Shown in pieces: positions 1,954 to 60,109 of a stretch of 60,274 bases of DNA (position 1 is its first letter; each line of letters starts with the position of its first letter). Where the stretch lies: the IMG/VR virus record IMGVR_UViG_3300027976_000041, positions 1 through 60,274 of that record. One strand, 5' to 3'. The stretch is from a virus. A program made the position numbers and the translations under genes. The notes beneath the pieces are model-generated. The model ran no database searches. It saw only the letters and a program-made list of their open reading frames with translations, and was not told the DNA's origin.

Positions 1954-3780
1954 TTATGCTCCTGCGATAACTTCGCTTGTGTTGACGGTGCAAAGCCACC
2001 GGATGTTGGTTGCTGCGACCCCTGTTACTGTGATCGCCAAGCCTCCATTGACCGTGTCTGCGGTGAGTACAAGGGGTGTGGCACTCAGACCTGTGATGTT
2101 GTTGAACAGCGAGGTGAGAGTGGATGCGTGCAGTGTGGTGGCTGCTGCGGATGCTACCCGGTTGATAACTGCGGTGAACTCGAAGGCTGCTAGCTCTGCA
2201 CCACCCGCTATGTTTCTACGTGCTGCTACTTGTCCTTGCACAGTCATCATCTGATTGTTTTGGAGGATGAGTTGGTTGTCTGCTCCGCCTGCTGAACCGT
2301 CTGAGCCAAGGGTTGATGCTGTTGCGTTTGTGGTTTCGCGGCGTAGGGTTAGGCTTCCGCGTTGACAGTCTCCAGCGTCTACGAATCTGCCGGAAGCATA
2401 GGCGTATTTACCGGTGATACCTTGAGTATTCGCAGAATATCCGCCTGGGATTGTTGAATATAACCCGCTGGCTGTATTACCAGAACCACCACCTACCGTG
2501 GCATTGGAACCGCCCCCAGCAGCATTCGTGTTGCCACCCGATACAGTGCAGGAAGTGGCATTTGCGGTGTTTGCTGTTCCCCCAGCAACAGTAGCAAAGT
2601 TGCCACTTGCAGTATTAGAAGCTCCACCGGCCACAGTAGCATTTGTCCCGCTTGCAAGACTACTTGACCCGCCGCCTATTGTTGAATATGCACCGCCCGC
2701 CACGCCATCAGCATTTGATCTAGATGACTGCCAATCAACCGCGTTTATGCCTCGTTTATTACCGCCCGCAGCCAAGTTATCCGCAATGTGAGCAGTCAGC
2801 GCACCAGAGCCTTTAGGTTTCAGTGCAAAGTCAACATTCGTTGCTGCATTGGTCGCTGTGAAAGATACAACAGGGACTGTTGCATTCGGCGCTGTTGTGC
2901 TGACTGCGGATGTGAAGTTGGAGACGTCTGTGGCAGTGCCGGTCATCGTCCCCGCCGAGAAGTTGCCAACAGCATCCCGCATTACCAGTGTGCTTGCCGT
3001 ATTCGCTGTAGCTTGGCTGTCTCCTGTTATGGTTCCGTTGAGGACTGCCATGGTCAGGATCTTATTGGTTAATGTGGCAGACGATGTAAGTGTCACAACT
3101 TCTGTCCCAATATCTATAGCATCGTCTGCCACGGAAATACGATTAGCCGTTCCAATTATATTCAGAATATTGCCATCTTTTTTTAATCCTGCGCCTGCAG
3201 TAATTGTTTGGCTAAATGTCAGAGGTGTTACGCCAAGTTCAATAGGATTTACTGTCGTGAGTGTATAACTCATTGACCCAGATATCGTTCCAGATGTTAC
3301 GAATACATCCATACCGGAAGTAACTTTAGAACTTGTATTTGCATCTGTAGAACGGGAGGCTACTACGCCTGATGCAACGACTACATAGATACCATTCTCA
3401 GTTGTAGCAGTTTGATTCTTAAGCAACACCCTATTACCGGTTGCTATTATCACATCATCTATAGTAACGTTATTAATCAATCCCGTGGCTATATTGATAT
3501 TAACAGTAGAGGCAACAAGAACCGATTCCTTATCCTTAAGTTCTTGTTTGGTTGTATCTACATAAAGTCTAGTTGACGCGTCTGTACCATTGGTCGGTGT
3601 AGGTACGGTGACGACTCCCGTAAAAGTAGGCGACGCTAATGTTGCGCGAAGAAGAACGCTGTCACTAAGTGACTTAAAGTTCCCATCGAGTTCCAAATTA
3701 GTAAGTGGTGCACCTTTAAGGATGGTACTTGTAGGAACTATTGGGGTAAGAGATGCCCTGTATTTAATATTACTCATCAT
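1954..3780 (-). CDS. long tail fibre/adhesin with YadA-head-like repeats
   Basis: 608 residues. Residues about 355-460 hold a run of 14-16-residue repeats of the type GGxxNTASGxxATVxGG, like the head repeats of trimeric autotransporter adhesins and many phage fibres. The N-terminal region (about 10-110) is a phage-structural-type segment ending in a TRLYVD-type motif often seen before fibre shafts. The C-terminal 130 residues form a non-repetitive domain. The start overlaps the stop of the upstream 82-residue gene as ATGATGA. Probably a receptor-binding or distal fibre subunit. Confidence 0.8.
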   Translation of the reverse strand: MMSNIKYRASLTPIVPTSTILKGAPLTNLELDGNFKSLSDSVLLRATLASPTFTGVVTVPTPTNGTDASTRLYVDTTKQELKDKESVLVASTVNINIATGLINNVTIDDVIIATGNRVLLKNQTATTENGIYVVVASGVVASRSTDANTSSKVTSGMDVFVTSGTISGSMSYTLTTVNPIELGVTPLTFSQTITAGAGLKKDGNILNIIGTANRISVADDAIDIGTEVVTLTSSATLTNKILTMAVLNGTITGDSQATANTASTLVMRDAVGNFSAGTMTGTATDVSNFTSAVSTTAPNATVPVVSFTATNAATNVDFALKPKGSGALTAHIADNLAAGGNKRGINAVDWQSSRSNADGVAGGAYSTIGGGSSSLASGTNATVAGGASNTASGNFATVAGGTANTANATSCTVSGGNTNAAGGGSNATVGGGSGNTASGLYSTIPGGYSANTQGITGKYAYASGRFVDAGDCQRGSLTLRRETTNATASTLGSDGSAGGADNQLILQNNQMMTVQGQVAARRNIAGGAELAAFEFTAVINRVASAAATTLHASTLTSLFNNITGLSATPLVLTADTVNGGLAITVTGVAATNIRWLCTVNTSEVIAGA

Positions 3781-4025
3781 CTATCCAGTTTTTGTAAAAT
3801 AAGATTTATCATAGATTGTATATTTATTATTTCGGTTTTAAGAAACCCAACTGAAGTATCTAATTCATTAATTTTATTAACACCATTTTTAACTCTTAAA
3901 GCGTCAATTTGTGCCCGATGAAAAGCAGAATTATTATTGACGAGAATGGCGCCGTTACAATCCCTAAGAATATTGGGAATAATTTGCCCGGCTTCGTCTT
4001 GAATTATGTTGCTAGAATTATGCAT
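3777..4025 (-). CDS. small structural protein with C-terminal helix, unknown
   Basis: 82 residues. It overlaps the end of the 873-residue structural gene by 22 bases and the next fibre gene by 4. The C-terminal 35 residues (LDTSVGFLKTEIINIQSMIN onward) look like a short coiled coil, which suggests oligomerisation with a fibre. Function not recognised. Confidence 0.65.
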   Translation of the reverse strand: MHNSSNIIQDEAGQIIPNILRDCNGAILVNNNSAFHRAQIDALRVKNGVNKINELDTSVGFLKTEIINIQSMINLILQKLDR

Positions 4026-6625
4026 CTATAACCCGTTACAGTTGGAATTACCATTCGATTAGTTGATCGAAGAACAATTTTAAGATCATATATATCGAAT
4101 GGCGATAGATCCTCTAAAGTAAACACATAATCTAGTTCTTGTGTTGAGTTTGAAGATAAATTTCTCTCTACAGGACAATTCATCTTTGTCCAATTTAGAT
4201 CGGTGTGAATAAGACTGGCTGATGTCAATGAAGTTCTCATATATACATCCACATTACTTTCCGCAGTCGATATCGCCGTTAGATTAAGTTGGGCGCCCTT
4301 TGAAATTTGAACAAGTGTAAATTGTTTTGTAAAATATTTAGAACGAGCAGAACCGCCGAATGCCAAAAGTTCCGAATTAAATCCAGAAAGTATGGCACTC
4401 CCTATGGCGCCAGTACCATCACCAGCAATTGTAAGTTTTGGTGGTTTTAGATAACCAGTTCCTGCTGTAACCACGGCCAAGGCGGTGACTTGTCCCCCAC
4501 TTACTGTAGCAGTAACAACCGCCTGGACCCCATCTGATAGATGAGGCGGCTCAACAGTTACAGTTGCAGTAGTATATCCGGACCCATTAAATCCCTGAGT
4601 CATGCTAACGCTAGAGATAATAGCCGAAGCACTTGTTGATTCGAAGTCTTCTATACTACTTTGATTATTGATAATATATGCAAATGTAGAAAGTTGAGGT
4701 GGCTCATGAACAACTATCATCGGTGATACATTTGAATTAGTTGAGGACAGACCCATTGTAATCGATGTACCCGCGGGTTCAATTGAATTAAATATGTTCT
4801 GTGTAGCATTAACGGTTGATAACAATATAGAAGGTGCCACAGGTCTATAATAACCCGAGGTAATTCTAGTCGGTGATGATACTGCATACGACTCTGAAGT
4901 AGTAATCAAATCTGTCGTAATTTTACTTCCAATTGGAATATGGTTAACAATTTGAGATTTATAACCGGCCACAATATTATTTGTAGTAAGAATAAAAATT
5001 GATTCACAAATTAGTTTGGCCACTGCGTCTCGTCCTGGCGTATGGCCACCAGTGATCGTTATAGTTGGAGCAACTGTATATCCAGCACCAATATTGGTCA
5101 GCGTAATACTTGTAATTACACCACCGGCAATAACTGGAGTAGCAGTAGCAGCAGTAGTAAATGTGCCAGGCGCACTGGTAATAACTATAGCAGCATCAAC
5201 AATATTATATCCAGCCCCGCCGTCATCGACTATAATTTTATTAACGAAGCCCGGCGTAGCCAAGGAACCAGTAGATGTAGCAACTACTGAAGCCGAAAAT
5301 ATAAAGACATAATCAGAAATTGATGTAATGACAAAATCTCCGGTCAAATTAGCAGCAGAGATTCCCCTAAATACCCCACCTTCTTTTGCGACCAGCGATA
5401 TTTTATTATTAGTTATAAGACCGTGCTGATGTTGTGTACAAACAGTAATAACATTACTACCTATAGTAACTAAAAAGTTAGCCCCCATTAATAGTGTGGG
5501 CGCAGACTTGGCTGTATAAGTCAAATAACTATTTGTACTTGAAGTATCGAAAACCGCTTGATATAATGTAAATTTAATATCTTCGGATTGTTCTGCGGTC
5601 CAGGTCGAATTGTTTTGAGATTTAAACATAGAACCAAGATGAGGCTGTTCAAAAATAGTTAATGTATTTTCGATTGATTTTGCACCCATTTGAGATGTAA
5701 AAACGTGATACGCCATAGAATTTGTTCTAAGTACAAAACAATATTCTTTATTTTCATTAAGATAGACCGGTATATCAAATTTAAATTTTGTCGGAAGCGA
5801 CGAATTTGAAGAAACAGCTACTTCTGTTGGTAATAGAGATTTTCTAGCAAATCTTGATACTAGTGCCGCGCCAGGATAACCATTAACTACTTCCCGAAGT
5901 TCAACCCAAACAGGGAGTGTATTATCCTTGGTAGAAAAGAAAATATCCAAAGATGTCACGAAACAACCACCGATTATACCGTACGTAAAAAACGATTGGG
6001 CGAGAGGGTCGGCTGGACCTACATCAGAACCATCCGAAAAACTCGATATTGAGTCTATAACATCAGTTGTGACAGTTGTGACTTCATTAATTACTACTGC
6101 TGGCGGCGCGCCAACGATATTCATCGTAATCGTCCGCAAAGAATCTTGTGTTTCCTTAAATGTCTCAAGAACACCTTGAGTATAGTATATAGCTGATGCA
6201 GAACCAACCATCGCGCCAGGTACAATATTTGTGCTTAATAGCGGTGTGTCTTGTACTCGAAACACTCGTGAACCAGTTTTAAAGGTGAATGGCGGAATAT
6301 AAAAGTCTAGAACCAATCGACCCTGCGCATCTGTTACCGCTGCAGCGCCCTGTATCAGTCCCGCAGGAGTTATTAGATCATCGATTGAAGTGCCATCAAA
6401 GAAAGCATATAATCTGGTATTTGGTTTTGTATCGACTATATTAATTTTAATAATACGACTTCTCATAAATACTATAGGTAAAGATCCTATCAAATCAGTA
6501 CGGGTAGACGTAATCGTAGAAGATTGTGCGTCGCTAGTAATAACTTGACGAGTCAATATTTGTGTAGTACTTTGTCCAGCATTAGTTAGGTTACCCCATA
6601 GTGTATTACCAGCGCCTGTTATCAT
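4004..6625 (-). CDS. large tail/baseplate-associated structural protein
   Basis: 873 residues. A segment around residues 210-360 (YPGAALVSRFARKSLLP, then KEYCFVLRTNSMAYHVFTSQ and LGSMFKSQNNSTWT) is a block conserved in large structural proteins of cyanophage-like T4 relatives, next to the DUF4815 protein as here. Residues about 450-540 and 660-740 carry GAGYT/GGGxGY-type beta repeats. The ATG at 6623-6625 has only a weak GGGG ribosome site. It probably belongs to the baseplate rim or proximal fibre. The specific T4 counterpart is uncertain. Confidence 0.7.
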   Translation of the reverse strand: MITGAGNTLWGNLTNAGQSTTQILTRQVITSDAQSSTITSTRTDLIGSLPIVFMRSRIIKINIVDTKPNTRLYAFFDGTSIDDLITPAGLIQGAAAVTDAQGRLVLDFYIPPFTFKTGSRVFRVQDTPLLSTNIVPGAMVGSASAIYYTQGVLETFKETQDSLRTITMNIVGAPPAVVINEVTTVTTDVIDSISSFSDGSDVGPADPLAQSFFTYGIIGGCFVTSLDIFFSTKDNTLPVWVELREVVNGYPGAALVSRFARKSLLPTEVAVSSNSSLPTKFKFDIPVYLNENKEYCFVLRTNSMAYHVFTSQMGAKSIENTLTIFEQPHLGSMFKSQNNSTWTAEQSEDIKFTLYQAVFDTSSTNSYLTYTAKSAPTLLMGANFLVTIGSNVITVCTQHQHGLITNNKISLVAKEGGVFRGISAANLTGDFVITSISDYVFIFSASVVATSTGSLATPGFVNKIIVDDGGAGYNIVDAAIVITSAPGTFTTAATATPVIAGGVITSITLTNIGAGYTVAPTITITGGHTPGRDAVAKLICESIFILTTNNIVAGYKSQIVNHIPIGSKITTDLITTSESYAVSSPTRITSGYYRPVAPSILLSTVNATQNIFNSIEPAGTSITMGLSSTNSNVSPMIVVHEPPQLSTFAYIINNQSSIEDFESTSASAIISSVSMTQGFNGSGYTTATVTVEPPHLSDGVQAVVTATVSGGQVTALAVVTAGTGYLKPPKLTIAGDGTGAIGSAILSGFNSELLAFGGSARSKYFTKQFTLVQISKGAQLNLTAISTAESNVDVYMRTSLTSASLIHTDLNWTKMNCPVERNLSSNSTQELDYVFTLEDLSPFDIYDLKIVLRSTNRMVIPTVTGYRCIILAT

Positions 6626-16763: not shown

Positions 16764-17606
16764 TTATTTATTATTGATATAGAACCACGTGGCCCATTTT
16801 GGGCCTGTAGAGTGGCATCTTACACTAATCGTTGATTTAACAACACCCAAAGTACTAGCAGCCACGGCGCCGGATTTGTATTGTATTCCGTCAATAGAAC
16901 ATGACTTCGACCATATATTTCCAGCTGCGCATCTTTTTCGTCCTGCGATCGACATATTTGCCCGAGAAGCTTCTGACATAGGTTTCCCAGTCAGAGCGAG
17001 TGATATTTTAGCCTTATGTTCGGCTGTGGGTCTAATTCCTATATGACCTAACCCTATATTTTTCTTGTGTTCATCTGATAGAGGTATACCAGTTAGGACC
17101 AATGATCTTTTAGACCTCTTTTCCTCTGTCCAACCTAACCCCATATTTTTCTTGTGTTCATCTGATAGAGGTATACCAGTTAGGACCAATGATAACGCTG
17201 CTCTCTTTCCCTCTGTCCAAGCTAAGGATATTTTTTTCTTATGCTCATCTGTCAATTTTTTTCCGGTCTTTGATAACGATATAGCAGACCTAGTAGTTAT
17301 AGATACTATGTTACCGGCTTGCCCATCACCACCGTCCGTGAGATTGATTAGAATACCTGTACCGAGATTTTTTCTGCCATACCACATAATATAGCGGCGT
17401 TCAAGAGCCAAGGCCCCAAGTTCAGTAAGATTAGATTCCATAATTATTATATTGGAACGATCTTTAGGTGGAAATTTCTTGCCATGCATAGCAAATGCTC
17501 GGCCACCTTTGCCCTTTCCAATATAATATGGAGTACCAGCCATGGCCGCTTTGCTGTCCTTTGCCCGCAGGTAAGCGTAAATATAATAAATTGTTTTATT
17601 ATTCAT
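16764..17606 (-). CDS. GIY-YIG homing endonuclease with NUMOD3 repeats
   Basis: 280 residues from the ATG at 17604-17606; an earlier in-frame codon would overlap gp25. The N terminus has TIYYIYAYLR and TPYYIGKGKGGRAF, the two halves of a GIY-YIG nuclease core, and the Glu in LERRYI fits the catalytic Glu. Residues about 115-225 hold four to five NUMOD3-type DNA-binding repeats (SDEHKKN/ISLALTGKPMS). The C-terminal SIDGIQYKSGAVAASTLGVV resembles a NUMOD1/helix-turn-helix element. It is a free-standing mobile gene inserted between gp25 and gp6. Unlike the other two homing genes in the window, it reads with its neighbours. Confidence 0.9.
   Translation of the reverse strand: MNNKTIYYIYAYLRAKDSKAAMAGTPYYIGKGKGGRAFAMHGKKFPPKDRSNIIIMESNLTELGALALERRYIMWYGRKNLGTGILINLTDGGDGQAGNIVSITTRSAISLSKTGKKLTDEHKKKISLAWTEGKRAALSLVLTGIPLSDEHKKNMGLGWTEEKRSKRSLVLTGIPLSDEHKKNIGLGHIGIRPTAEHKAKISLALTGKPMSEASRANMSIAGRKRCAAGNIWSKSCSIDGIQYKSGAVAASTLGVVKSTISVRCHSTGPKWATWFYINNK
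17013..17260. repeat. 87-base repeats encoding NUMOD3 units
   Basis: The string cttgtgttcatctgataga recurs at 17064 and 17151, and a diverged copy begins near 17238, giving an 87-base (29-codon) period. A shorter-period relative lies near 17013. The repeats encode the NUMOD3 modules of the homing endonuclease and probably arose by internal duplication. Confidence 0.8.
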
Positions 17607-17613
17607 AGCTCTT

Positions 17614-18006
17614 CTAGCGCACGCGGGTGAGTGTAACACCCACTTCTAATGGGTTCTCTGTATTCTTAATTCTAAAGATAATTCCGATATACACTTTATT
17701 GTTATCGTAACTAGGGCGTACATTGACAGATAGAACATCGATCCTAGGCTCATAGTTATTTAGTACATTTGTGATGGCCTCGGTCATAGTTATAACAAAT
17801 AGATCGTCCATATTATCGAACATCAATTTTCTAATTGGTGTACCGATCTCAGAATGAAATAGACGCTCATAATTACCGATCATCACTAGACTCTTAACCG
17901 CAAACTTTATTGCTCGGTCGTCAATCCGGATATTTAGATCGCCAGAGTTCGGATTCGCCCCAAAGACTGCATCTATATCTGTGTATGTTCGTGTTATTCT
18001 TGGCAT
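17614..18006 (-). CDS. gp25: baseplate wedge protein gp25
   Basis: 130 residues, the usual length for T4 gp25 (132). The segment DDRAIKFAVKSLVMIGNYER, the LFHSEIGTPIRKLMFDN motif and the VNVRPSYDNNKVYIGIIFR strand are typical of the gp25/GPW family, which connects the wedge to the sheath-initiating collar. A late promoter (18025-18032) lies 19 bases upstream of the ATG. There is no clear ribosome site in the AT-rich leader. Confidence 0.95.
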   Translation of the reverse strand: MPRITRTYTDIDAVFGANPNSGDLNIRIDDRAIKFAVKSLVMIGNYERLFHSEIGTPIRKLMFDNMDDLFVITMTEAITNVLNNYEPRIDVLSVNVRPSYDNNKVYIGIIFRIKNTENPLEVGVTLTRVR

Positions 18007-38275: not shown

Positions 38276-38542
38276 TTAGTCCTCTTCAATCCACACAAAT
38301 AATGCATTTGAACCACGTTCCCCAGGGTCCAGGCGGGGAAACCATATTGACTTGGCGCTTCTGATACCGTTCTCTAGGATACTCTCGATCCCTGTCAGTT
38401 CGCAAAACTTTTTCATATCTGCTTCTGTTTGCATGCAAACTTCTACAACATAGGGCGCCTCAAATGCTTCTTGTTCATATGGGGGAAACCCAAGATAACC
38501 AATACGGTTTATTGTTTTGGCTCCAAAAAATTCTGTCGTCAT
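38276..38542 (-). CDS. small protein, phage family of unknown function
   Basis: 88 residues from the ATG at 38540-38542, overlapping the glycosyltransferase stop as ATGA with GGAG upstream. It carries DMKKFCELTG and AKSIWFPRL, a FA-LTG...KSIWFP pattern seen in many small phage proteins. Confidence 0.7.
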   Translation of the reverse strand: MTTEFFGAKTINRIGYLGFPPYEQEAFEAPYVVEVCMQTEADMKKFCELTGIESILENGIRSAKSIWFPRLDPGERGSNALFVWIEED

Positions 38543-39477
38543 TCTAACTCCATTCGCACTTCGGTCATTGTTGTATTCGTATAAGATCCACAAATATTCT
38601 TTGGGTTATTCAACTTAACCAACTTAAGTTTAGTATCATATTCATCGGGCCAGGTGCAACCATCTTTCAAGATAAGCCTATTATTCTTTTGAAAATGCGA
38701 ATAATCTACCTGGTGATGGTGTCGCCCCCATTTAGTAGTTAGCTCAACACAATCTGGATGCGCGCGATGCAGAGATGCAGCAAATGAATATCGGTTATCG
38801 AAATCCTTCTTATCACCAATCTTATAGATAGCCTCAGTATTTCCACCCTTCATCTGATTGGTTGCAGCTTTACCAACAGCGAATGAATTCAATAAAATTG
38901 TGCAATAGCCTTTTTTTAAGAGCTGAAGGGATAAATCTGTATCTTCATTGAATGGTGCGGGTTTGTTATCCCATTCAAGAACTCGCCAACGTTCAGAAAT
39001 GGAGTTATCCAAGAGGATACACGAGTAGATTCTCGTGTTATAATAAGCGGGCTCCTTTTTAACGAATGATGGGCAGAAGAAGTGATAGTTCAGACCGCTC
39101 ATTTTTACATTAGTAAAGCGATCCGTATAATCTTCTAATACTCGAAATGGTACAGATGATCTAACACGCAATTTAGTATTTTGGTGGATACGATATAGAT
39201 ATCTAAAGTTATCGTCGCACACCCAATGCCGCTTGTGCCCTTCGGCTATAGAATGTTCCCAGATCCAATTGCGAGCGGGGATGCCACCAAGCCCAAGATT
39301 TTTGAATGGTAGTACCAGAATCTTCTTTGGATTGATGACTGAGGCATATTTGTCGTATTCTTGTTCTTCGATTACGATTCTATAATCCATGTCGTTTTCT
39401 TCGAATGTTTTTGACGTCATTCGAGATTCCCATCTGCCCTTTGAGAGGATGTAGATAGGGTAGCGGGTTTGCTTCAT
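38539..39477 (-). CDS. TET-associated-type glycosyltransferase (probable DNA-base glycosyltransferase)
   Basis: 312 residues. Motifs follow the TAGT family: YPIYILSKGRWESRMTS, IVIEEQEYDKYA, LVLPFKNLGLGGIPARNWIW, HWVCDDNF (metal-binding DDN replacing DxD), NTRIYSCILLDN, FNEDTDLSLQLLKKGYCT and MKGGNTEAIY. In other phages this family sits near TET/JBP oxygenases or modified-base pathways and is thought to add sugars to hydroxymethylated bases. No TET enzyme or base hydroxymethylase is visible here. The two sugar-nucleotide enzymes at 35619-37418 are plausible donor makers. Confidence 0.85.
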   Translation of the reverse strand: MKQTRYPIYILSKGRWESRMTSKTFEENDMDYRIVIEEQEYDKYASVINPKKILVLPFKNLGLGGIPARNWIWEHSIAEGHKRHWVCDDNFRYLYRIHQNTKLRVRSSVPFRVLEDYTDRFTNVKMSGLNYHFFCPSFVKKEPAYYNTRIYSCILLDNSISERWRVLEWDNKPAPFNEDTDLSLQLLKKGYCTILLNSFAVGKAATNQMKGGNTEAIYKIGDKKDFDNRYSFAASLHRAHPDCVELTTKWGRHHHQVDYSHFQKNNRLILKDGCTWPDEYDTKLKLVKLNNPKNICGSYTNTTMTEVRMELE

Positions 39478-39542: not shown

Positions 39543-40337
39543 CTATACCATAGCCGTGAGTTCTGCCAAACTAATGATTTTGATACCGAGATCACGGGCT
39601 TTCTGAGTTTTTCCTGAGGTTGAATGAATATCCTTACACACAAGAATCGTGATAGCCTTGGAGAAGTTTTCTACGACCTCACCACCCATCGACTGCACTT
39701 TGGCAATCATCTCAGGCGATAATCTAACACCTGTTGCGATAATCACTTCATTTATGAGAGCGCCTTTGCCGAGAACGACTGCTTTCGGTTGAACGAATTT
39801 AACTTTCGATTTGATGCGTTGATATATTGTGTTAGCAGAACTTGCATTGCAATGAAGTAATTCCGCCGATTTTACATCATAGCCTTGGAGCTCACAGTAT
39901 TCCTCAACCGAAACCCGTCCAGATAATACTTCCTCAACCGTGTACTTATCAAATACTACTTTGAGCTTTCGTTCGCCGAGCCCACGGCCAAATAAACCAA
40001 GCGCCGCGAACAAGCGTTGAGGCGTGGTTGATTCAAGAATCTTTTTCATCATGATCCCAGCTTTACGACCGTTTTCGCCGATAACTTCTTCTAGAACTTC
40101 TGGGTTGTTGATAATACCCACCGCGCTAAAGAAACCATGTTCAATCAGTTTTGCGACAGAACCTTCGCCAATCCAATCAATCTCCATCTTCGAGAAGAAA
40201 TATTGAAGCACCTTGGCGCGCTGTTCATCGGCGCCCTCGGCTGAAGTAGATACAAGATCAACACCCGTGGCATTCCATTCTACACCAGCTCTGCCTCCTG
40301 GGAATTGCCCGTAAAACCAATCATCATATGTTTGCAT
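39543..40337 (-). CDS. ligA: NAD-dependent DNA ligase, C-terminal half (HhH + BRCT)
   Basis: 264 residues. VEWNATGVDLV, QRAKVLQYFFSKMEIDWIGE, LFAALGLFGRGLGERKL and a BRCT domain (GVRLSPEMIAKVQSMGGEVV, AITILVCKDIHSTSGKTQKA) correspond to the part of bacterial LigA after the zinc finger. The adenylation and OB parts are in a separate gene at 41190-42278; the zinc-finger cysteines are absent from both. It has its own early promoter at 40369-40397, so it is probably expressed and may assemble with the N-terminal half. Confidence 0.9.
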   Translation of the reverse strand: MQTYDDWFYGQFPGGRAGVEWNATGVDLVSTSAEGADEQRAKVLQYFFSKMEIDWIGEGSVAKLIEHGFFSAVGIINNPEVLEEVIGENGRKAGIMMKKILESTTPQRLFAALGLFGRGLGERKLKVVFDKYTVEEVLSGRVSVEEYCELQGYDVKSAELLHCNASSANTIYQRIKSKVKFVQPKAVVLGKGALINEVIIATGVRLSPEMIAKVQSMGGEVVENFSKAITILVCKDIHSTSGKTQKARDLGIKIISLAELTAMV

Positions 40338-40356
40338 AATAAATCCGAAATAAAAA

Positions 40357-40377
40357 TGTTATAAATACATTATAACA
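40357..40377. repeat. inverted repeat under opposed promoters
   Basis: Perfect arms TGTTATAA and TTATAACA with a 5-base spacer. It contains the plus-strand late octamer and the minus-strand -10 box. Confidence 0.75.
40360..40367 (+). promoter_or_regulatory. T4-type late promoter for the homing endonuclease in the ligase gap
   Basis: Perfect TATAAATA on the plus strand, about 92 bases before the ATG at 40459. Confidence 0.65.
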
Positions 40378-40397
40378 CATTTTGTTATAAAAGTAAA
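40369..40397 (-). promoter_or_regulatory. early promoter for the ligase C-terminal half
   Basis: TTTACT (40392-40397), 17 bp, TATAAT (40369-40374) with extended TGT; leader of about 31 bases to the ATG at 40337. The -10 lies 1 base from the divergent late promoter. Confidence 0.8.
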
Positions 40398-40458
40398 AAG
40401 TGCCATCCACGGGCCTCGAGAGCCCCGACGACAGTACGCAACCCTACTAGGAGTCTTT

Positions 40459-41253
40459 ATGCGCAACAAAAATATTTATCAATTCAACTATGTCTACCGT
40501 ATTACCAACATAGTTACTAGTATGCATTATTACGGTTGTAGAAGCTGTGATATTGATCCAAAACTAGACCTTGGTATCAAATACTTTGGTTCACTTACGG
40601 GTGAAGTCGGTAAAGCCTTTAGAGCCGACCAAAAAGCAAATCCGTCAAAATTCAAGTATAAGATCGTTAGAATATTCACCACACGTGAATCTGCACTAAC
40701 ACTCGAAATAATGCTCCATGCTATGTTTGATGTTGGCCGCAACCAGAAATTCTACAATATAGCAAAACAGACATCAACTTGGTATGATAGAACTGGTGTG
40801 CCAGTTTCTCCAGAAGTTTTAGCAAAAAGGACTATCACGCTCGCAAGAAATAGAGCGGCCCCTGGTTACATACACCCGCTTAGTGGTAAGAAGCGTTCGG
40901 CCATTCATATAGCGAGTAGCATTACCGCTAGGGCGATAATTCGGGCTAAACCAGATTACATAAATCCTCAAAAGGGTAAAAAACACACGAAAGAACATAA
41001 TGCTAGTATTGCAGCCGGTATGGCAAAAGCTAACGCCGTTCCTGGGTATATAGATAAACGTACTGGCACAGTATGGTCAGAGGAAACTAAAATTAAGGCC
41101 GCAAAAATTCGAGCAAGAAGAAGGGCTGAACCGGATTATATCAGGCCCGTATATCGGACGAATGTTTTCGTCCGTAAAATGAAACGCTTTTATTGCAGGG
41201 GGCCTGGTTTACCAAACCCGATAATGGTTGGTATAACATCTCCCGCTCGGTGA
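40459..41253 (+). CDS. GIY-YIG-type homing endonuclease inserted in ligA
   Basis: 264 residues. The N-terminal 110 (YVYRITNIVTSMHYYGCRSC, IDPKLDLGIKYFGSLTGEVG, EIMLHAMFDV) form a GIY-YIG-like nuclease domain, close to that of the plus-strand gene at 45463. The C-terminal half has three repeats of the type A(P/K)PxYIxPxxGK with Lys-rich helices, probably DNA-binding. AGGAGTCTTTATG matches the start context of the sibling gene. The last 64 bases overlap the end of the ligase N-terminal half on the other strand, so its C terminus is read from antisense ligase sequence. Confidence 0.85.
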   Translation: MRNKNIYQFNYVYRITNIVTSMHYYGCRSCDIDPKLDLGIKYFGSLTGEVGKAFRADQKANPSKFKYKIVRIFTTRESALTLEIMLHAMFDVGRNQKFYNIAKQTSTWYDRTGVPVSPEVLAKRTITLARNRAAPGYIHPLSGKKRSAIHIASSITARAIIRAKPDYINPQKGKKHTKEHNASIAAGMAKANAVPGYIDKRTGTVWSEETKIKAAKIRARRRAEPDYIRPVYRTNVFVRKMKRFYCRGPGLPNPIMVGITSPAR

Positions 41254-42278
41254 ATCTTAACAATTGAACCCGGTTGAATTTTGTTATCATAAATGAATCG
41301 TGCATTAAAACCAGAGCATCTGGAGATAGTAACCCCGCCAATATACACTGGCTCGATAAGTATGACTGGTTTGTAAAAACTGTCTTTTGACACGGACCAC
41401 TCGATTCCTATCACCTCTGTTTCTACGGAGCTATTCACCAGTTTAATTTTTACTGAGTAATTAGGATTTAAATCATCGGATGTAGCATTGAACTTTCGAT
41501 ATTCAATACTATCAACATCGACTACCACACCATCGAGTTCGTATTCTGAGTGCTCGATCATCTGTGCGATTACCATTTCAACATCTTTATAAGTAAAATG
41601 GCAATTCTGTAAGTATGTAACTGGTGTGGTGAAGTTATAGTGCTGCGATAGTATACGCATCTGTGCACTCTTATCCATTAGATTTTTGTAATTGGCGAAC
41701 ATCTCGAACGCCACGAATTTAAAATATTTGTAAAGTTCGCCTTGACCTTTAGTCGAGTTTAAGAATCCTGCGACGAAGTTACGGGCATTAGCATACTCGC
41801 GGTCGGCTTCGGCCAGAAGCGCGGGCCAATCCTTTTTAGCAATCACCAATTCGCCCCGGATAAAACCTGTAAACTTATCTCCAGTATGGGCGGGAAGGCC
41901 AACCATCTTAGATGTATGACGGATATTGGATGCGCCATAAACTCCATCGCCACGAGACCAGGAATTGATCAGGACGCCGTTTTTGTATTCCAGCAGGCAA
42001 GAATTGCCGTCGATTTTTTCGGTGAACAGATATTCACGAGCCTTTGGAAAGTTGTTTTTCCAAGCCGACCACTCTTTTTCATTGCGAATTTGATTCAAAC
42101 TGCCCATCACCATAGGCAATTTTTCCTTGCCTGTGCGTTCGTTTGAACCAATGTGCTTCAGAATCTCGGGGTTGGTTTTGGATAGAGCAAGTTCGAATGC
42201 GTCGAACTCAGTATCCGTCATGATGGGATCGCCCGCGAAGTAGGATTTCTTCGCGGCGAAATATTTGGAAACAGTCAT
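41190..42278 (-). CDS. ligA: NAD-dependent DNA ligase, N-terminal half (adenylation + OB)
   Basis: 362 residues; complete LigA has about 670. YFAGDPIMTDTEFDAFE marks the NAD-binding Ia-type start; FTEKIDGNSCLLEY holds the AMP-accepting Lys (KIDG); GFIRGELV, YELDGVVVDVD and VKIKLVN are later nucleotidyltransferase motifs; VTISRCSGFNARFI and VKIHRAGDVIPTI are the OB fold. It then ends abruptly with IIGFGKPGPLQ where a zinc finger would follow. Zinc finger, HhH and BRCT are missing from this gene; the last two are encoded at 39543-40337. Confidence 0.92.
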   Translation of the reverse strand: MTVSKYFAAKKSYFAGDPIMTDTEFDAFELALSKTNPEILKHIGSNERTGKEKLPMVMGSLNQIRNEKEWSAWKNNFPKAREYLFTEKIDGNSCLLEYKNGVLINSWSRGDGVYGASNIRHTSKMVGLPAHTGDKFTGFIRGELVIAKKDWPALLAEADREYANARNFVAGFLNSTKGQGELYKYFKFVAFEMFANYKNLMDKSAQMRILSQHYNFTTPVTYLQNCHFTYKDVEMVIAQMIEHSEYELDGVVVDVDSIEYRKFNATSDDLNPNYSVKIKLVNSSVETEVIGIEWSVSKDSFYKPVILIEPVYIGGVTISRCSGFNARFIYDNKIQPGSIVKIHRAGDVIPTIIGFGKPGPLQ

Positions 42279-43202: not shown

Positions 43203-43409
43203 TTAGTTCCTAAAGTTAAGTTTGTAATCAATCATACAATCGACCCACGCGTTTTGGTAGATCAAAAGTTCTTTCCATGTGGGATGGTTCACATCCTCAT
43301 GCATAGTTGTAACTTCTTCTAAGATCGGCATAGACATAAAGAAGTTCATACTTACGTGAGCGATCTCGCCGTCGCCCAAAATTTCACGTATTTCGTCGGT
43401 TGTTCTCAT
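43203..43409 (-). CDS. unknown small protein
   Basis: 68 residues. The start overlaps the stop of the segE-like gene as ATGA. The C-terminal part (WKELLIYQNAWVDCMIDYKL) is helical. No family recognised. Confidence 0.6.
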   Translation of the reverse strand: MRTTDEIREILGDGEIAHVSMNFFMSMPILEEVTTMHEDVNHPTWKELLIYQNAWVDCMIDYKLNFRN

Positions 43410-43849
43410 ATTTTAGGTGTAATGTGTCGGTGATTTATTCTACAATTGATGATGCCATTAAAATACTTATCTTGATTTTCCAAAACCTCAGAAAGCATCT
43501 GCTCTTTAGCTTCCCAATACGACATGCCGCCTTTGGTGCTGCAGAAAAACAAAATTTCTCGCGTGAATTTATCTTCGCCGAGTTCCTTAACAAGCTGAAC
43601 AAGCTTCTCGCTACTGCTCCAATATGTCGGCCAATCTGACTGCACTAAAGTTTTTGTTTTCTTTTTATATTTCGCGCCATTTTTTCTCTTCAAAGTTTTC
43701 ACGGACGTCTTCTTAAAAAACAAAAGTTTTTTTCCAAGATATGCCTTGCCATTTTCCAAACAAGTAATTTTGTAAATGAAACCTAAAGCGTTTTCGGGAA
43801 TAAGAGTTTCGTTAAATGGCGCATCATGGTATACCCACTCAGACATCAT
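43406..43849 (-). CDS. SegE-like GIY-YIG endonuclease
   Basis: 147 residues. GFIYKITCLENGKAYLGKK is the GIY-YIG core, followed by a Lys-rich stretch, the SDWPTYWSSSEKLVQLVKEL block, and FTREILFFCSTKGG with YWEAKEQ (catalytic Glu). This layout is typical of phage proteins named putative endonuclease SegE. It could be a homing enzyme or a domesticated nuclease. It lies in line with its neighbours rather than opposed to them. Confidence 0.8.
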   Translation of the reverse strand: MMSEWVYHDAPFNETLIPENALGFIYKITCLENGKAYLGKKLLFFKKTSVKTLKRKNGAKYKKKTKTLVQSDWPTYWSSSEKLVQLVKELGEDKFTREILFFCSTKGGMSYWEAKEQMLSEVLENQDKYFNGIINCRINHRHITPKI

Positions 43850-45396: not shown

Positions 45397-45404
45397 TATA
45401 AATA
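45397..45404 (+). promoter_or_regulatory. T4-type late promoter for the homing endonuclease between nrdB and nrdA
   Basis: Perfect TATAAATA on the plus strand, 58 bases before the ATG at 45463. Confidence 0.65.
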
Positions 45405-45407
45405 GGT

Positions 45408-45436
45408 GGTACTCGCGGTTTCTGAGACCCAGTACC
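45408..45436. repeat. leader hairpin of the homing endonuclease transcript
   Basis: GGTACT/AGTACC outer stem with an inner GGTTT/AGACC stem. It begins 4 bases after the late octamer. On the minus strand it would lie in the nrdA-nrdB intergenic RNA. Confidence 0.65.
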
Positions 45437-45462
45437 ATTAGCCAACTCAACAAGGAGCCTTT

Positions 45463-46224
45463 ATGGCCAAGTCATATACTTATCATTACGCATACCGTAT
45501 CACAAACAAGGTAACCGGAATGCACTACTACGGTGCACGTAGTTGTAATATCGAACCAAAACTAGATCTCGGTTACATTTATCCCGGCTCACTCTCAAAT
45601 AAAGAGGGTGTTATATTCGTGGCCGATCAAAAAACTAATCCCCGAAACTATAGGTACAAGGTTGTTCAAATATTTGAAACTCGCATACTGGCAATATCAC
45701 GCGAAATAATCCTCCACGCCATGTTCAACGTGAAGTGCCATCCAAAGTTCCACAATAAGTCAAACCAAACATCCACCGGATGGGATACCACTGGTACGAC
45801 CATGCCAGAAGGAGCTACGTTGAAGCGACTTAGTACCCGAGCGAATAATGATGCACTCCTAACATTAGCTAAAAGGGAAAAACGTGCCGCTGACCGAACA
45901 GCGCGCCGCATTGCAAAGGCGGCCGGTGGATTCGTTCGCAAAAAGCAAACTCCAATATCTTCAGAAGCAAATGCCATCAAAAAGCAAAAAGAAAGATATA
46001 CACGGGCCATAAATGATGCACGCAGATCACCAGAAGATACAGCGACAAATTACGCAAAGAGACTTGCATCATGGGCTCAAACTATGGCTAATGGTTTCGA
46101 GCACCCGAATAAGGGAAGGAGCCCTTCGGCGGTCTCCGAAGCATCTCGCCTGGCCTCCAGAGATAGAAACCAAGCAGCCGGGAAGATTTACAATAAACCC
46201 GGGCCCAAGATTAATAGATCATAG
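45463..46224 (+). CDS. GIY-YIG-type homing endonuclease between nrdB and nrdA
   Basis: 253 residues. The N-terminal 115 (YAYRITNKVTGMHYYGARSC, IEPKLDLGYIYPGSLSNKEG, EIILHAMFNV, QTSTGWDTTGT) are clearly related to the gene at 40459. The C-terminal half differs: a Lys/Arg/Ala-rich helical region instead of the three repeats. AGGAGCCTTTATG start context is shared with its sibling. The 3' end overlaps nrdA by 6 bases on the opposite strand. T4 itself has the unrelated homing gene mobE at this same nrdA-nrdB junction. Confidence 0.85.
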   Translation: MAKSYTYHYAYRITNKVTGMHYYGARSCNIEPKLDLGYIYPGSLSNKEGVIFVADQKTNPRNYRYKVVQIFETRILAISREIILHAMFNVKCHPKFHNKSNQTSTGWDTTGTTMPEGATLKRLSTRANNDALLTLAKREKRAADRTARRIAKAAGGFVRKKQTPISSEANAIKKQKERYTRAINDARRSPEDTATNYAKRLASWAQTMANGFEHPNKGRSPSAVSEASRLASRDRNQAAGKIYNKPGPKINRS

Positions 46225-51815: not shown

Positions 51816-51844
51816 ATTATAACACAAACAAGAATAAAAGTAAA
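51816..51844 (-). promoter_or_regulatory. early sigma70-type promoter
   Basis: TTTACT (51839-51844), 17 bp, TATAAT (51816-51821), extended TGT. Same spacer as 34587-34615. It begins inside the T-rich end of the terminator at 51849-51885. Confidence 0.85.
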
Positions 51845-58118: not shown

Positions 58119-58325
58119 TCATATTCCTGATAGAGTCTCCTTGAGTTCCACCGCCTCCGGGTTACAAGAAGGCCAAGTGCAGGAGTGGCTCTGGGAGGTG
58201 TCGAGGGAAGCCCGCAGCGCATCCATCGCCCCATCAATTTCAGCAGGTAGGCAAGGCCCGCCGATACTTGTCTCGTTCAGTTGCTCAAGCCGCAGGAGAG
58301 CTAGCTTTAATACTTCGATGTTCAT
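58119..58325 (-). CDS. small protein with CTWPxCNPEA motif
   Basis: 68 residues. SHSCTWPSCNPEAVELKETL shares its Cys motif with the upstream gene's TYPCTWPACNPEAG, and the DNA around both motifs is nearly identical. It overlaps the upstream gene as ATGA. AAGGAGACACC is the ribosome site. Function unknown; typical of densely packed phage accessory genes. Confidence 0.65.
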   Translation of the reverse strand: MNIEVLKLALLRLEQLNETSIGGPCLPAEIDGAMDALRASLDTSQSHSCTWPSCNPEAVELKETLSGI

Positions 58326-58783
58326 GGTGTCTCCTTAGTTTGCTGCGCTATGGCAGCGTTTAGCACGATATAGAGATTCCGCATTTCTGTAGGTAGCCCC
58401 CTAGAAGCAACCTCGTCATTCCCATAGTCACACGGGTGCACATCTACATTGTTAAGTGCGAGTCTAACTACTGACTGTGCTGCTGCCCTCAACCCTTCGA
58501 TCTCCTTGGCTTGTGCAGGTGGTGAGGTGTAGAGCGGTCGGTCATCCTCACAAGTCTTGTGCCCCCAGATGCTTCCACCAATGGCTTGCCATGCAACAGG
58601 CTCCTGCTCCCCCGCCTCCGGGTTACAAGCAGGCCAAGTGCAGGGGTATGTGTCGATGGAAGCATCAGCCTTCAACTCCTCGATCTCCTTGGCTTGGCGT
58701 TCTAGTTCTTCAACAGCATCTTTGACGTCACCGTACTCTTCGTATAACGCACCTGCTCGGAGGTGTTCAATTAGTGTGCTAAT
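58322..58783 (-). CDS. EPVAWQ/PLYTSPP phage protein, probable ATT start
   Basis: 153 residues if it begins at the ATT at 58781-58783, where AAGGAGACGAA gives the same ribosome site as neighbouring genes. The first TTG is at 58675 and would give 117 residues with no usable site. Features: a coiled coil (AVEELERQAKEIEEL), CTWPACNPEA, then EPVAWQAIGG and PLYTSPPAQ, a module common in phages of Burkholderiales and relatives. Function unknown. Confidence 0.6.
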   Translation of the reverse strand: MSTLIEHLRAGALYEEYGDVKDAVEELERQAKEIEELKADASIDTYPCTWPACNPEAGEQEPVAWQAIGGSIWGHKTCEDDRPLYTSPPAQAKEIEGLRAAAQSVVRLALNNVDVHPCDYGNDEVASRGLPTEMRNLYIVLNAAIAQQTKETP

Positions 58784-58899
58784 TTCGTCTCCTTTGTTTG
58801 CTGCGCTATGGCAGCGCCGATTGCATCAGCCTTCAACAGCCGTATCTCAGCATGAGCCTTACCCAGCTGTAGGTCAAGCTCTCGTAGTTCTTCAGTCAT
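58771..58899 (-). CDS. 42-residue coiled-coil protein
   Basis: MTEELRELDLQLGKAHAEIR, then LLKADAIGAAIAQQTKET. GAGGAGAA precedes the ATG. Its end AAIAQQTKET repeats the end of the downstream 153-residue protein, a local duplication. Confidence 0.6.
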   Translation of the reverse strand: MTEELRELDLQLGKAHAEIRLLKADAIGAAIAQQTKETKLAH

Positions 58900-58955
58900 T
58901 TCTCCTCGGGGTCTTCTACAGTTCTATGTAAAACTTTTACTATCGTCTCCCACTC

Positions 58956-59237
58956 CTAATGAGTCATGATAGTTCGCAAGGTGCTATACGCCCCATTGCT
59001 TAGTTGCGTGCGCAATACAAATTCATAGTCTAATAACGCGCTGGCTCCGCTACCCAATACGATACAGTGCGTTGCGCCCATAAAGTTTTCTTCGTTTTTC
59101 TCTGTCCTCTCGATAGACTCTGCTGCGGCGGGGCGGATGCCGAGATAGTTGTAGCCGATGCCAACGGTAATTCCCCGCTGGTCGGCTACCCTTTTGTGAA
59201 GAAAACCGCCGTACATTGTTGAGTCAACTTTTGTCAT
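58956..59237 (-). CDS. unknown small protein
   Basis: 93 residues. AAGGAGATGAA precedes the ATG. It overlaps the upstream gene as ATGA. No motif recognised. Confidence 0.6.
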   Translation of the reverse strand: MTKVDSTMYGGFLHKRVADQRGITVGIGYNYLGIRPAAAESIERTEKNEENFMGATHCIVLGSGASALLDYEFVLRTQLSNGAYSTLRTIMTH

Positions 59238-59407
59238 TTCATCTCCTTCTTTTTCGGTAGTGCTTTTACATCATCAACCCACACTCCGCTGTCGGGCTTG
59301 GCTTTTAACGCCACATCATTTTCCCTGCCGTGGGCAAGATAGAAGCCGTTGCGGTCTGCCATCTCATTGGCAACTTCGTGTTGTCTTACTGTTTGCCATG
59401 CGTTCAT
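59234..59407 (-). CDS. 57-residue unknown protein
   Basis: Begins MNAWQTVRQHEVANEMADRN and ends ALPKKKEMK. AGGGGAACGAA precedes the ATG. ATGA overlaps on both sides. Confidence 0.6.
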   Translation of the reverse strand: MNAWQTVRQHEVANEMADRNGFYLAHGRENDVALKAKPDSGVWVDDVKALPKKKEMK

Positions 59408-59484
59408 TTCGTTCCCCTAAGTTTCTTCCACCAATAAAGAAGGCTCATGCCTTCAAATACGTCTCGCCAGAATTGTTTAGTCAT
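59404..59484 (-). CDS. 26-residue peptide
   Basis: MTKQFWRDVFEGMSLLYWWK plus KLRGTK. It is linked to both neighbours by ATGA overlaps, which supports translation despite the length. Amphipathic, Trp-rich. Confidence 0.45.
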   Translation of the reverse strand: MTKQFWRDVFEGMSLLYWWKKLRGTK

Positions 59485-59684
59485 TTGTAAAACCCTGTAG
59501 TTTTAAGCCACGCAATAAACGCGGCATAGACTGCCGTAGCCTCGTCGGTATCTTGCTCAATCTTCACGCCGTGGACGTAGAACCCGTCTGGCGATACGCG
59601 GAACATCTCAGCACCGCCCATAGGTGCGTGGAATGTGATTGAGTTTTTTGGCTCGGGTGCTGCTGTAATTTCAGTGTTGTTCAT
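59481..59684 (-). CDS. small conserved phage protein
   Basis: 67 residues from the ATG at 59682-59684 with AAAGGAGAG upstream. AEMFRVSPDGFYVHGVKIEQ followed by AVYAAFIAWL is a pattern widespread in phages of beta-proteobacteria. Function unknown. Confidence 0.75.
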   Translation of the reverse strand: MNNTEITAAPEPKNSITFHAPMGGAEMFRVSPDGFYVHGVKIEQDTDEATAVYAAFIAWLKTTGFYK

Positions 59685-60109
59685 ATCGATCTCTCCTTTA
59701 TGTGTCGCTCGACGTACTCGGCCTGCATCCAAGCCAAAGCTCCTAGCTGTTGATAAACGTCATCGTGGAAGTCGCACCACGCAGCCATTGCTGCGTCACT
59801 TCCGCTGCCTATGGCAAAAAACTTGTTTCTAAGTTTCATGGGGTATGGACTATTTTCATAGAGCCATACTCCCTCCGGCCCACCGACCAATAATGTCGAT
59901 TTATCTGCCTCGGCAATTTTGGGAAACTTTTCAATGTTAGCCCCCGCCTCTAACCACTTGATCATGGCTTCAGTGGCGCAAACCGTACCAGCACCCCCGA
60001 CAATAGCGTGCCCAACTCGTTGAATTTTCGTACGCTGCGTTTTTGTGTAGTAATACTCACCCTGTCTATCAGAGGCCATTGAGTTGCCATCGAATGCGAT
60101 TACAGTCAT
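59681..60109 (-). CDS. HslV/proteasome-like phage protein
   Basis: 142 residues. MTVIAFDGNSMASDRQ, then AIVGGAGTVCATEAMIKWL, LLVGGPEGVWLYE and FFAIGSGSDAAMAAW follow the beta-sandwich layout of Ntn hydrolases of the HslV type found in phages. The usual mature N-terminal Thr is not obvious, so activity is uncertain. AAGGAGACGAA precedes the ATG. Confidence 0.75.
   Translation of the reverse strand: MTVIAFDGNSMASDRQGEYYYTKTQRTKIQRVGHAIVGGAGTVCATEAMIKWLEAGANIEKFPKIAEADKSTLLVGGPEGVWLYENSPYPMKLRNKFFAIGSGSDAAMAAWCDFHDDVYQQLGALAWMQAEYVERHIKERSI

Follow-up and report, generated by a model that had tools for sequence, protein, structure and literature searches.

Homing endonuclease genes (HEGs) are often carried in introns or inteins. 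In the "fractured genes" that Dassa et al. (2009) reportedly described, split inteins are accompanied by EDxHD/Vsr-like HEGs. Among phages, homing genes have split genes of DNA-metabolism enzymes in two, namely nrdA of Aeromonas phage Aeh1 (by mobE), gene 60/39 of T4 (by mobA) and gene 43 of phage 25 (43A/43B, with seg43), and the halves of nrdA and of gene 43 are reported to function together (PMC2988022). A preliminary description of the DNA analyzed here had named T4-type precedents of this kind, and the nrdA and gene 43 splits described in that study (PMC2988022) make the comparison an apt one.

Phage NAD-dependent DNA ligases (LigA) made of two subunits are also known. In T5, ligA and ligB are adjacent, with promoters between them, and a pair of neighbouring ligase genes likewise occurs in an Epseptimavirus, a Shenzhenvirus, a Sugarlandvirus, and a Vibrio phage. 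PDB entries 9HU3 and 9I5I are titled "PR1 phage heterodimeric DNA ligase," with 9HU3 solved on nicked DNA, and T5 LigA and LigB are homologous to the PR1 heterodimer 9HU3 (8e-104 and 4e-80).

We analyzed a stretch of viral DNA of 60,274 nucleotides (hereafter the window; IMG/VR record IMGVR_UViG_3300027976_000041), in which an opposite-strand homing gene separates two parts of LigA. As in Aeh1 nrdA, one gene appears to have been made into two open genes by insertion of a HEG. The Aeh1, T4, and phage 25 splits are single T4-like cases, whereas the enzyme split here is LigA, by an antisense HEG, and we find indications of at least six invasions by two nuclease families. Like T5/PR1 LigA/LigB, the window ligase is broken between the OB fold and the zinc/HhH region, and in T5, as in the window, the gene for the C subunit is preceded by promoter sequence of its own. 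Unlike the window, the T5-family records examined hold no HEG between the ligase genes; the T5/PR1 ligase also has a C4 zinc finger that the window ligase does not, is distant in sequence, and branches elsewhere in the tree.

Results

The N-terminal half (N-half; 41190..42278, minus strand, 362 aa) comprises domain Ia, the adenylation domain, and the OB fold. It matches Pfam DNA_ligase_aden (1.6e-20) and DNA_ligase_OB (2.3e-14), can be aligned to 2OWO through the LigA profile, and carries K88 in KIDG, SRGDG at 108, RGEL at 141, ELDG at 247, VKIK at 276, and RAGDVIP at 344. Its C-terminus lies 12 residues past VIP, where the T5 N subunit stops 8 residues past it. The C-terminal half (C-half; 39543..40337, minus strand, 264 aa) consists of a Cys-less remnant of the zinc region followed by HhH and BRCT domains (Pfam BRCT, 7.9e-6), and it aligns to the second half of the PHROG 3869 profile, "NAD-dependent DNA ligase" (3.6e-25). 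The HhH domain is recognized by alignment and fold, with GRGLGERK at 117. For an AlphaFold model of the C-half (pLDDT 84.5), the best PDB matches are LigA structures, including E. coli LigA 2OWO (E 1.3e-5) and the PR1 ligase B subunit 9HU3_B (20% identity). The preliminary description had proposed a LigA split by an opposite-strand homing gene, with adenylation and OB domains in one half and HhH and BRCT in the other; the open reading frames and the Pfam and PHROG domains agree with the split, and the allocation is borne out by Pfam for the N-half and by Pfam, alignment, and fold for the C-half.

Adjoining the C-half is a gene for a TET-associated glycosyltransferase (38539-39477, minus strand; Pfam TAGT, 5.4e-36), which may mean that the phage DNA is hypermodified. 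Toward the right end of the window (58322-60109), small genes unlike the T4-like remainder mark a possible boundary or chimera.

In the preliminary description, the zinc-finger part appeared lost. Indeed, the window ligase has no Cys4 motif, which is expected for the C4 zinc finger of LigA. However, the unsplit ligases of the jumbo phages XacN1, Atu_ph07, Phosso, and RAS14 also lack a Cys4 finger, with 0-2 Cys per whole protein, so the loss is ancestral, older than the split and not an effect of it, and goes back to the common stock of these ligases. The Cys4 finger thus does not define the branch of phage LigA to which the window belongs.

Between the halves lies a free-standing HEG of probable GIY-YIG type (40459..41253, plus strand, 264 aa), assigned by its match to PHROG 314, "homing endonuclease" (3.3e-21), by a paralogue elsewhere in the window, and by its repeats. 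Its motif is a degenerate GIY-YIG, YVYRITN..YYG, with R28 and E83, both of which are common to the paralogue, and it contains four 30-aa NUMOD3-like repeats. Pfam matches to SegE/NUMOD3 fall under the cut-offs, the predicted structure (pLDDT 38) was too poor for use, and a plasmid search with the HEG gave no match. We recounted the overlap between the 3' end of the HEG and that of the N-half, and the 64 nt given previously are correct (41190..41253), as is the statement that the HEG fills the gap; its final ~20 codons consist of ligase DNA read in antisense. Ahead of the HEG is a leader (40399..40458, plus strand) with an AGGAG ribosome site; its homology to the leader of the paralogue (45403-45462) indicates that it travelled with the HEG.

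The paralogue itself (45463-46224, plus strand) is likewise a HEG of GIY-YIG type, and its N-terminal 127 residues are 54% identical to the ligase HEG. It lies antisense between nrdB and nrdA and overlaps the 3' end of nrdA by 6 nt, with nrdA intact. Further HEG-type genes are found on the minus strand at 16764-17639, with NUMOD3 and I-TevI DNA-binding domains and an overlap with the end of a gp25-like gene, and at 43406-43849, where the product is SegE-like and GIY-YIG (Pfam, 1.2e-30).

At the junctions, the N-half ends in CCC CTG CAA TAA and the C-half begins with ATG CAA ACA TAT. When the halves are joined at the common TGCAA, the reading is in frame (..GFGKPGPLQTYDDWFYGQF..), at a place where the unsplit ligase L013 has ..VISPMPLENMKYDEWFYNQF..; the joined window linker is PGPLQTYDDWFYGQF and that of L013 is PMPLENMKYDEWFYNQF. 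Because the join is in frame and the L013 linker matches it, the C-half opens with native ligase residues, and little or no ligase sequence was lost. The insert would be ~855 bp (40338..41192), between the LigA codons CTG CAA and ACA TAT, with TGCAA on both sides. Mapping the site on unsplit homologues, a check put forward in the preliminary description, found L010 and L011 unsplit and the L013 linker aligned with the window join, and the putative HEG target is empty in all three. The empty site PLQTYDDW, sought among viral contigs as degenerate DNA, gave no match.

Within the overlap, an antisense-ligase stretch (41203..41220, plus strand) matches the start of the HEG repeat unit at 13/18 nt and in frame (P about 0.003-0.005 versus other window DNA), which hints at microhomology possibly used in the insertion. 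A strong RNA hairpin is predicted at the stop codon of the N-half (41130-41215, minus strand; -26.4 kcal/mol, z -2.9, 0/200 shuffles as stable), pairing CAGGCCC of the native ligase with GGGCCTG of the insert and followed by no T-run.

If the insert were spliced out as RNA (an intron) or as protein (a split intein), a single chain would be restored. HEGs often travel in such elements, and split inteins are known from fractured genes; these genes resemble the split LigAs in that a free-standing HEG lies between two parts of the gene for a replication enzyme. In contrast to fractured genes, however, the LigA junctions have no intein halves, and the protein would remain two chains. We rejected a split intein since the junction residues are ligase linker, with no added sequence and no non-ligase residues at either junction for an intein half, and a group I or II intron since the insert has no Rfam match to a catalytic core. 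Rfam introns were absent from the window region at gathering and relaxed thresholds and from the other split loci at gathering thresholds, and the site is occupied by different nucleases in unrelated inserts. Splicing is therefore highly improbable.

We regard an assembly artefact as a negligible prospect. The window is a metagenomic contig, and it alone covers the junction between the C-half and the HEG. However, a contig assembled from a different sample, L001, matches the window at 99.99% identity over 7.3 kb and runs through the junction between the N-half and the HEG before ending inside the HEG, so this junction is not an assembly error; moreover, other samples contain ligases arranged in the same way, four of them for the L014 group. 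Searches with exact peptides found no close relatives of the C-half and HEG except L001, a nucleotide search of named phages gave no match, and genome contigs yielded distant bacterial or archaeal ligases only.

A profile search of viral contigs with the N-half returned 76 loci, 62 with unsplit LigA. The nearest relatives of the window N-half, L010 (46%) and L011 (45%), are unsplit, as are the ligases of the named large phages Motura, Amme-1, Ab1-TPeters, RHph_N46, LIS04, and Aphrodite1. In a tree of 64 ligases (L247 left out), HEG-split ligases occupy at least five places among unsplit ones. The starred groups that join HEG-split with unsplit ligases have support of 100 for the window and 99 each for L014, L026, and L032/L043, while L065 is a long branch. 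The window ligase groups with the unsplit L010 and L011, outside the T5 LigA/LigB clade.

At least five further phage ligases, all from metagenomic contigs like that of the window, are split in the same linker by homing genes (L014, L026, L032/L043, L065, and L247). The preliminary description knew of no equivalent for LigA; this does not hold, given these HEG-split LigAs in at least five other lineages, the T5-family LigA and LigB, and PDB 9HU3/9I5I. The further HEG-split ligases are broken 8-15 residues past the GDVIP motif, and all 16 split N-halves compared, HEG-free ones included, end 5-17 residues past VIP. The HEG insert is antisense in five of six events. Two nuclease families, GIY-YIG and EDxHD/Vsr-like, are found at the site. 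In L014, L026, L032, and L043, the opposite-strand HEG between the halves (PHROG 559 and 9084) combines DUF723/DUF4379/CapR repeats with a C-terminal nuclease, the layout of the EDxHD/Vsr-like outgroup (PMC12350094). The L014 arrangement is shared by three near-identical further contigs. In L065, an opposite-strand GIY-YIG HEG is followed by a C-half bearing a zinc finger. A HEG-centred search found HEGs adjoining LigA only in the L014 group and L026. Near the split ligase of L032, we observed a permuted tmRNA gene (L032:8448-8787; Rfam RF04321, 83 bits).

L247 was located by a C-half search. Its N-half stops at TAA, and 2390-4234 would encode one 614-aa fusion of an EDxHD HEG with the LigA C-half (zinc-HhH-BRCT) in the sense orientation, which rules out the notion that the HEG is always antisense. 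The fusion frame contains TAG three times, each time where an LxGQxFG repeat has its glutamine, and from the 8 kb examined, this phage probably reads TAG as Gln. L247 stands outside the tree and would count as a sixth independent event because its ligase is of a distant, zinc-bearing type and its HEG has the other orientation. With homing genes having entered this linker independently at least six times in large phages, it would be both tolerant and a recurrent target.

A different order of events, in which ligA first broke in two as in T5 and a HEG settled later in the ready gap, is unlikely at the window. Such an order has been discussed for gene 43 of phage 25 (PMC2988022), and HEG-free split LigAs occur in several lineages (the T5 clade, L061/L067, L082, L231/L233, and L255). 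However, in the window, L014, L026, and L032/L043, the ligase has unsplit nearest relatives, the window halves abut at the common TGCAA with no spare gap, and the HEG runs into ligase coding sequence at five of the six antisense loci. Among the HEG-free splits, L061:2945-6077 and L067:3455-6071 have a C-half that is separated from the N-half by some distance and encoded on the other strand. In Vibrio phage D17 and L231, small ORFs lie between the two ligase parts but are not recognisable as HEG remnants.

Ahead of the C-half lies an early-type promoter, TTTACT-17-TATAAT (40397-40369, minus strand; TTTACTTTTAt..TGTgTTATAAT). It is one of six near-identical minus-strand copies, the others being at 51844, 43008, 42754, 35359, and 34615, and a looser form, TTTAC-N18-TATAAT, has 7 matches in the window versus 0.055 expected, which upholds the earlier assignment of this promoter to the phage's own family. 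Promoter-like sites are also found ahead of the C-halves of L043 and L032 and ahead of T5 ligB. The same search at other split loci found no C-half promoter at L026 or L065 and one that was not significant at L014, ruling out a general rule that every C-half has a promoter.

It is quite improbable that the insertion inactivated the ligase, leaving a dying gene and a phage that uses the host ligase. The C-half has no strong ribosome site, and the terminal branch of the window ligase is long (1.01, versus 0.59 and 0.67 for its unsplit sisters L010 and L011), so some relaxation is possible. Against decay, both halves are open and retain the catalytic and HhH residues, the C-half promoter belongs to the phage's family, and structure 9HU3 shows a T5-type split ligase in heterodimeric form on nicked DNA. 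A further argument comes from L032 and L043, whose N-halves are 76% and C-halves 79% identical at the amino acid level, versus only 44% for their HEGs. Between them, dS is saturated while dN is 0.17 for the N-half and 0.13 for the C-half, a pattern of strong purifying selection on both halves during divergence. Their matching junctions suggest that the split is older than their divergence; if so, both halves have been kept functional as separate genes. By analogy with the 9HU3 homologue and with selection on the L032/L043 halves, the window halves likely work in trans. Sequence alone shows the split, the HEG, the unsplit relatives, the recurrence, and selection on both halves in one other lineage, while we infer expression, assembly, nick sealing, and homing activity in the window phage.

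Discussion

We consider it probable, at about 0.82, that an antisense GIY-YIG cassette split ligA into a trans-acting two-subunit ligase and that this was one of at least six independent invasions of the linker. The cassette would consist of the free-standing HEG, the leader that belongs to it, and a phage early promoter facing outward, and would have entered ligA in antisense orientation, in the linker that connects the OB fold to the Cys-less zinc/HhH region. Insertion would have placed a stop codon directly after the OB-side half, and an ATG and promoter directly before the HhH-BRCT half, at the cost of little or no ligase sequence. On nicked DNA, the separate gene products would then most likely come together again to form a heterodimeric NAD-dependent ligase like that of T5/PR1.

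HEG-split genes (Aeh1 nrdA, T4 gene 60, and gene 43) and two-subunit phage LigA were already known. New here are the HEG-split LigA, of which a partial literature search found no published report, its antisense layout, and its convergent recurrence, with HEGs of two nuclease families at one linker. More tentatively, the linker that joins OB fold and zinc region in phage LigA could be a general hot spot where HEGs make obligate heterodimers, and the HEG-free T5/PR1 ligases might be descendants of such splits after deletion of the HEG; we consider this conceivable but rather doubtful.

Splits of essential-type enzymes by selfish genes were previously a few isolated T4-like cases. Here, unrelated nucleases, mostly antisense, would have struck one exact linker of one enzyme on at least six occasions. 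For biotechnology, the linker offers a natural break point for split-ligase designs. For phage biology, the recurrence would allow the fates of such splits to be tested by comparison, including the gain of a promoter, the formation of a stable heterodimer, and the origin of the two-subunit ligase of T5.
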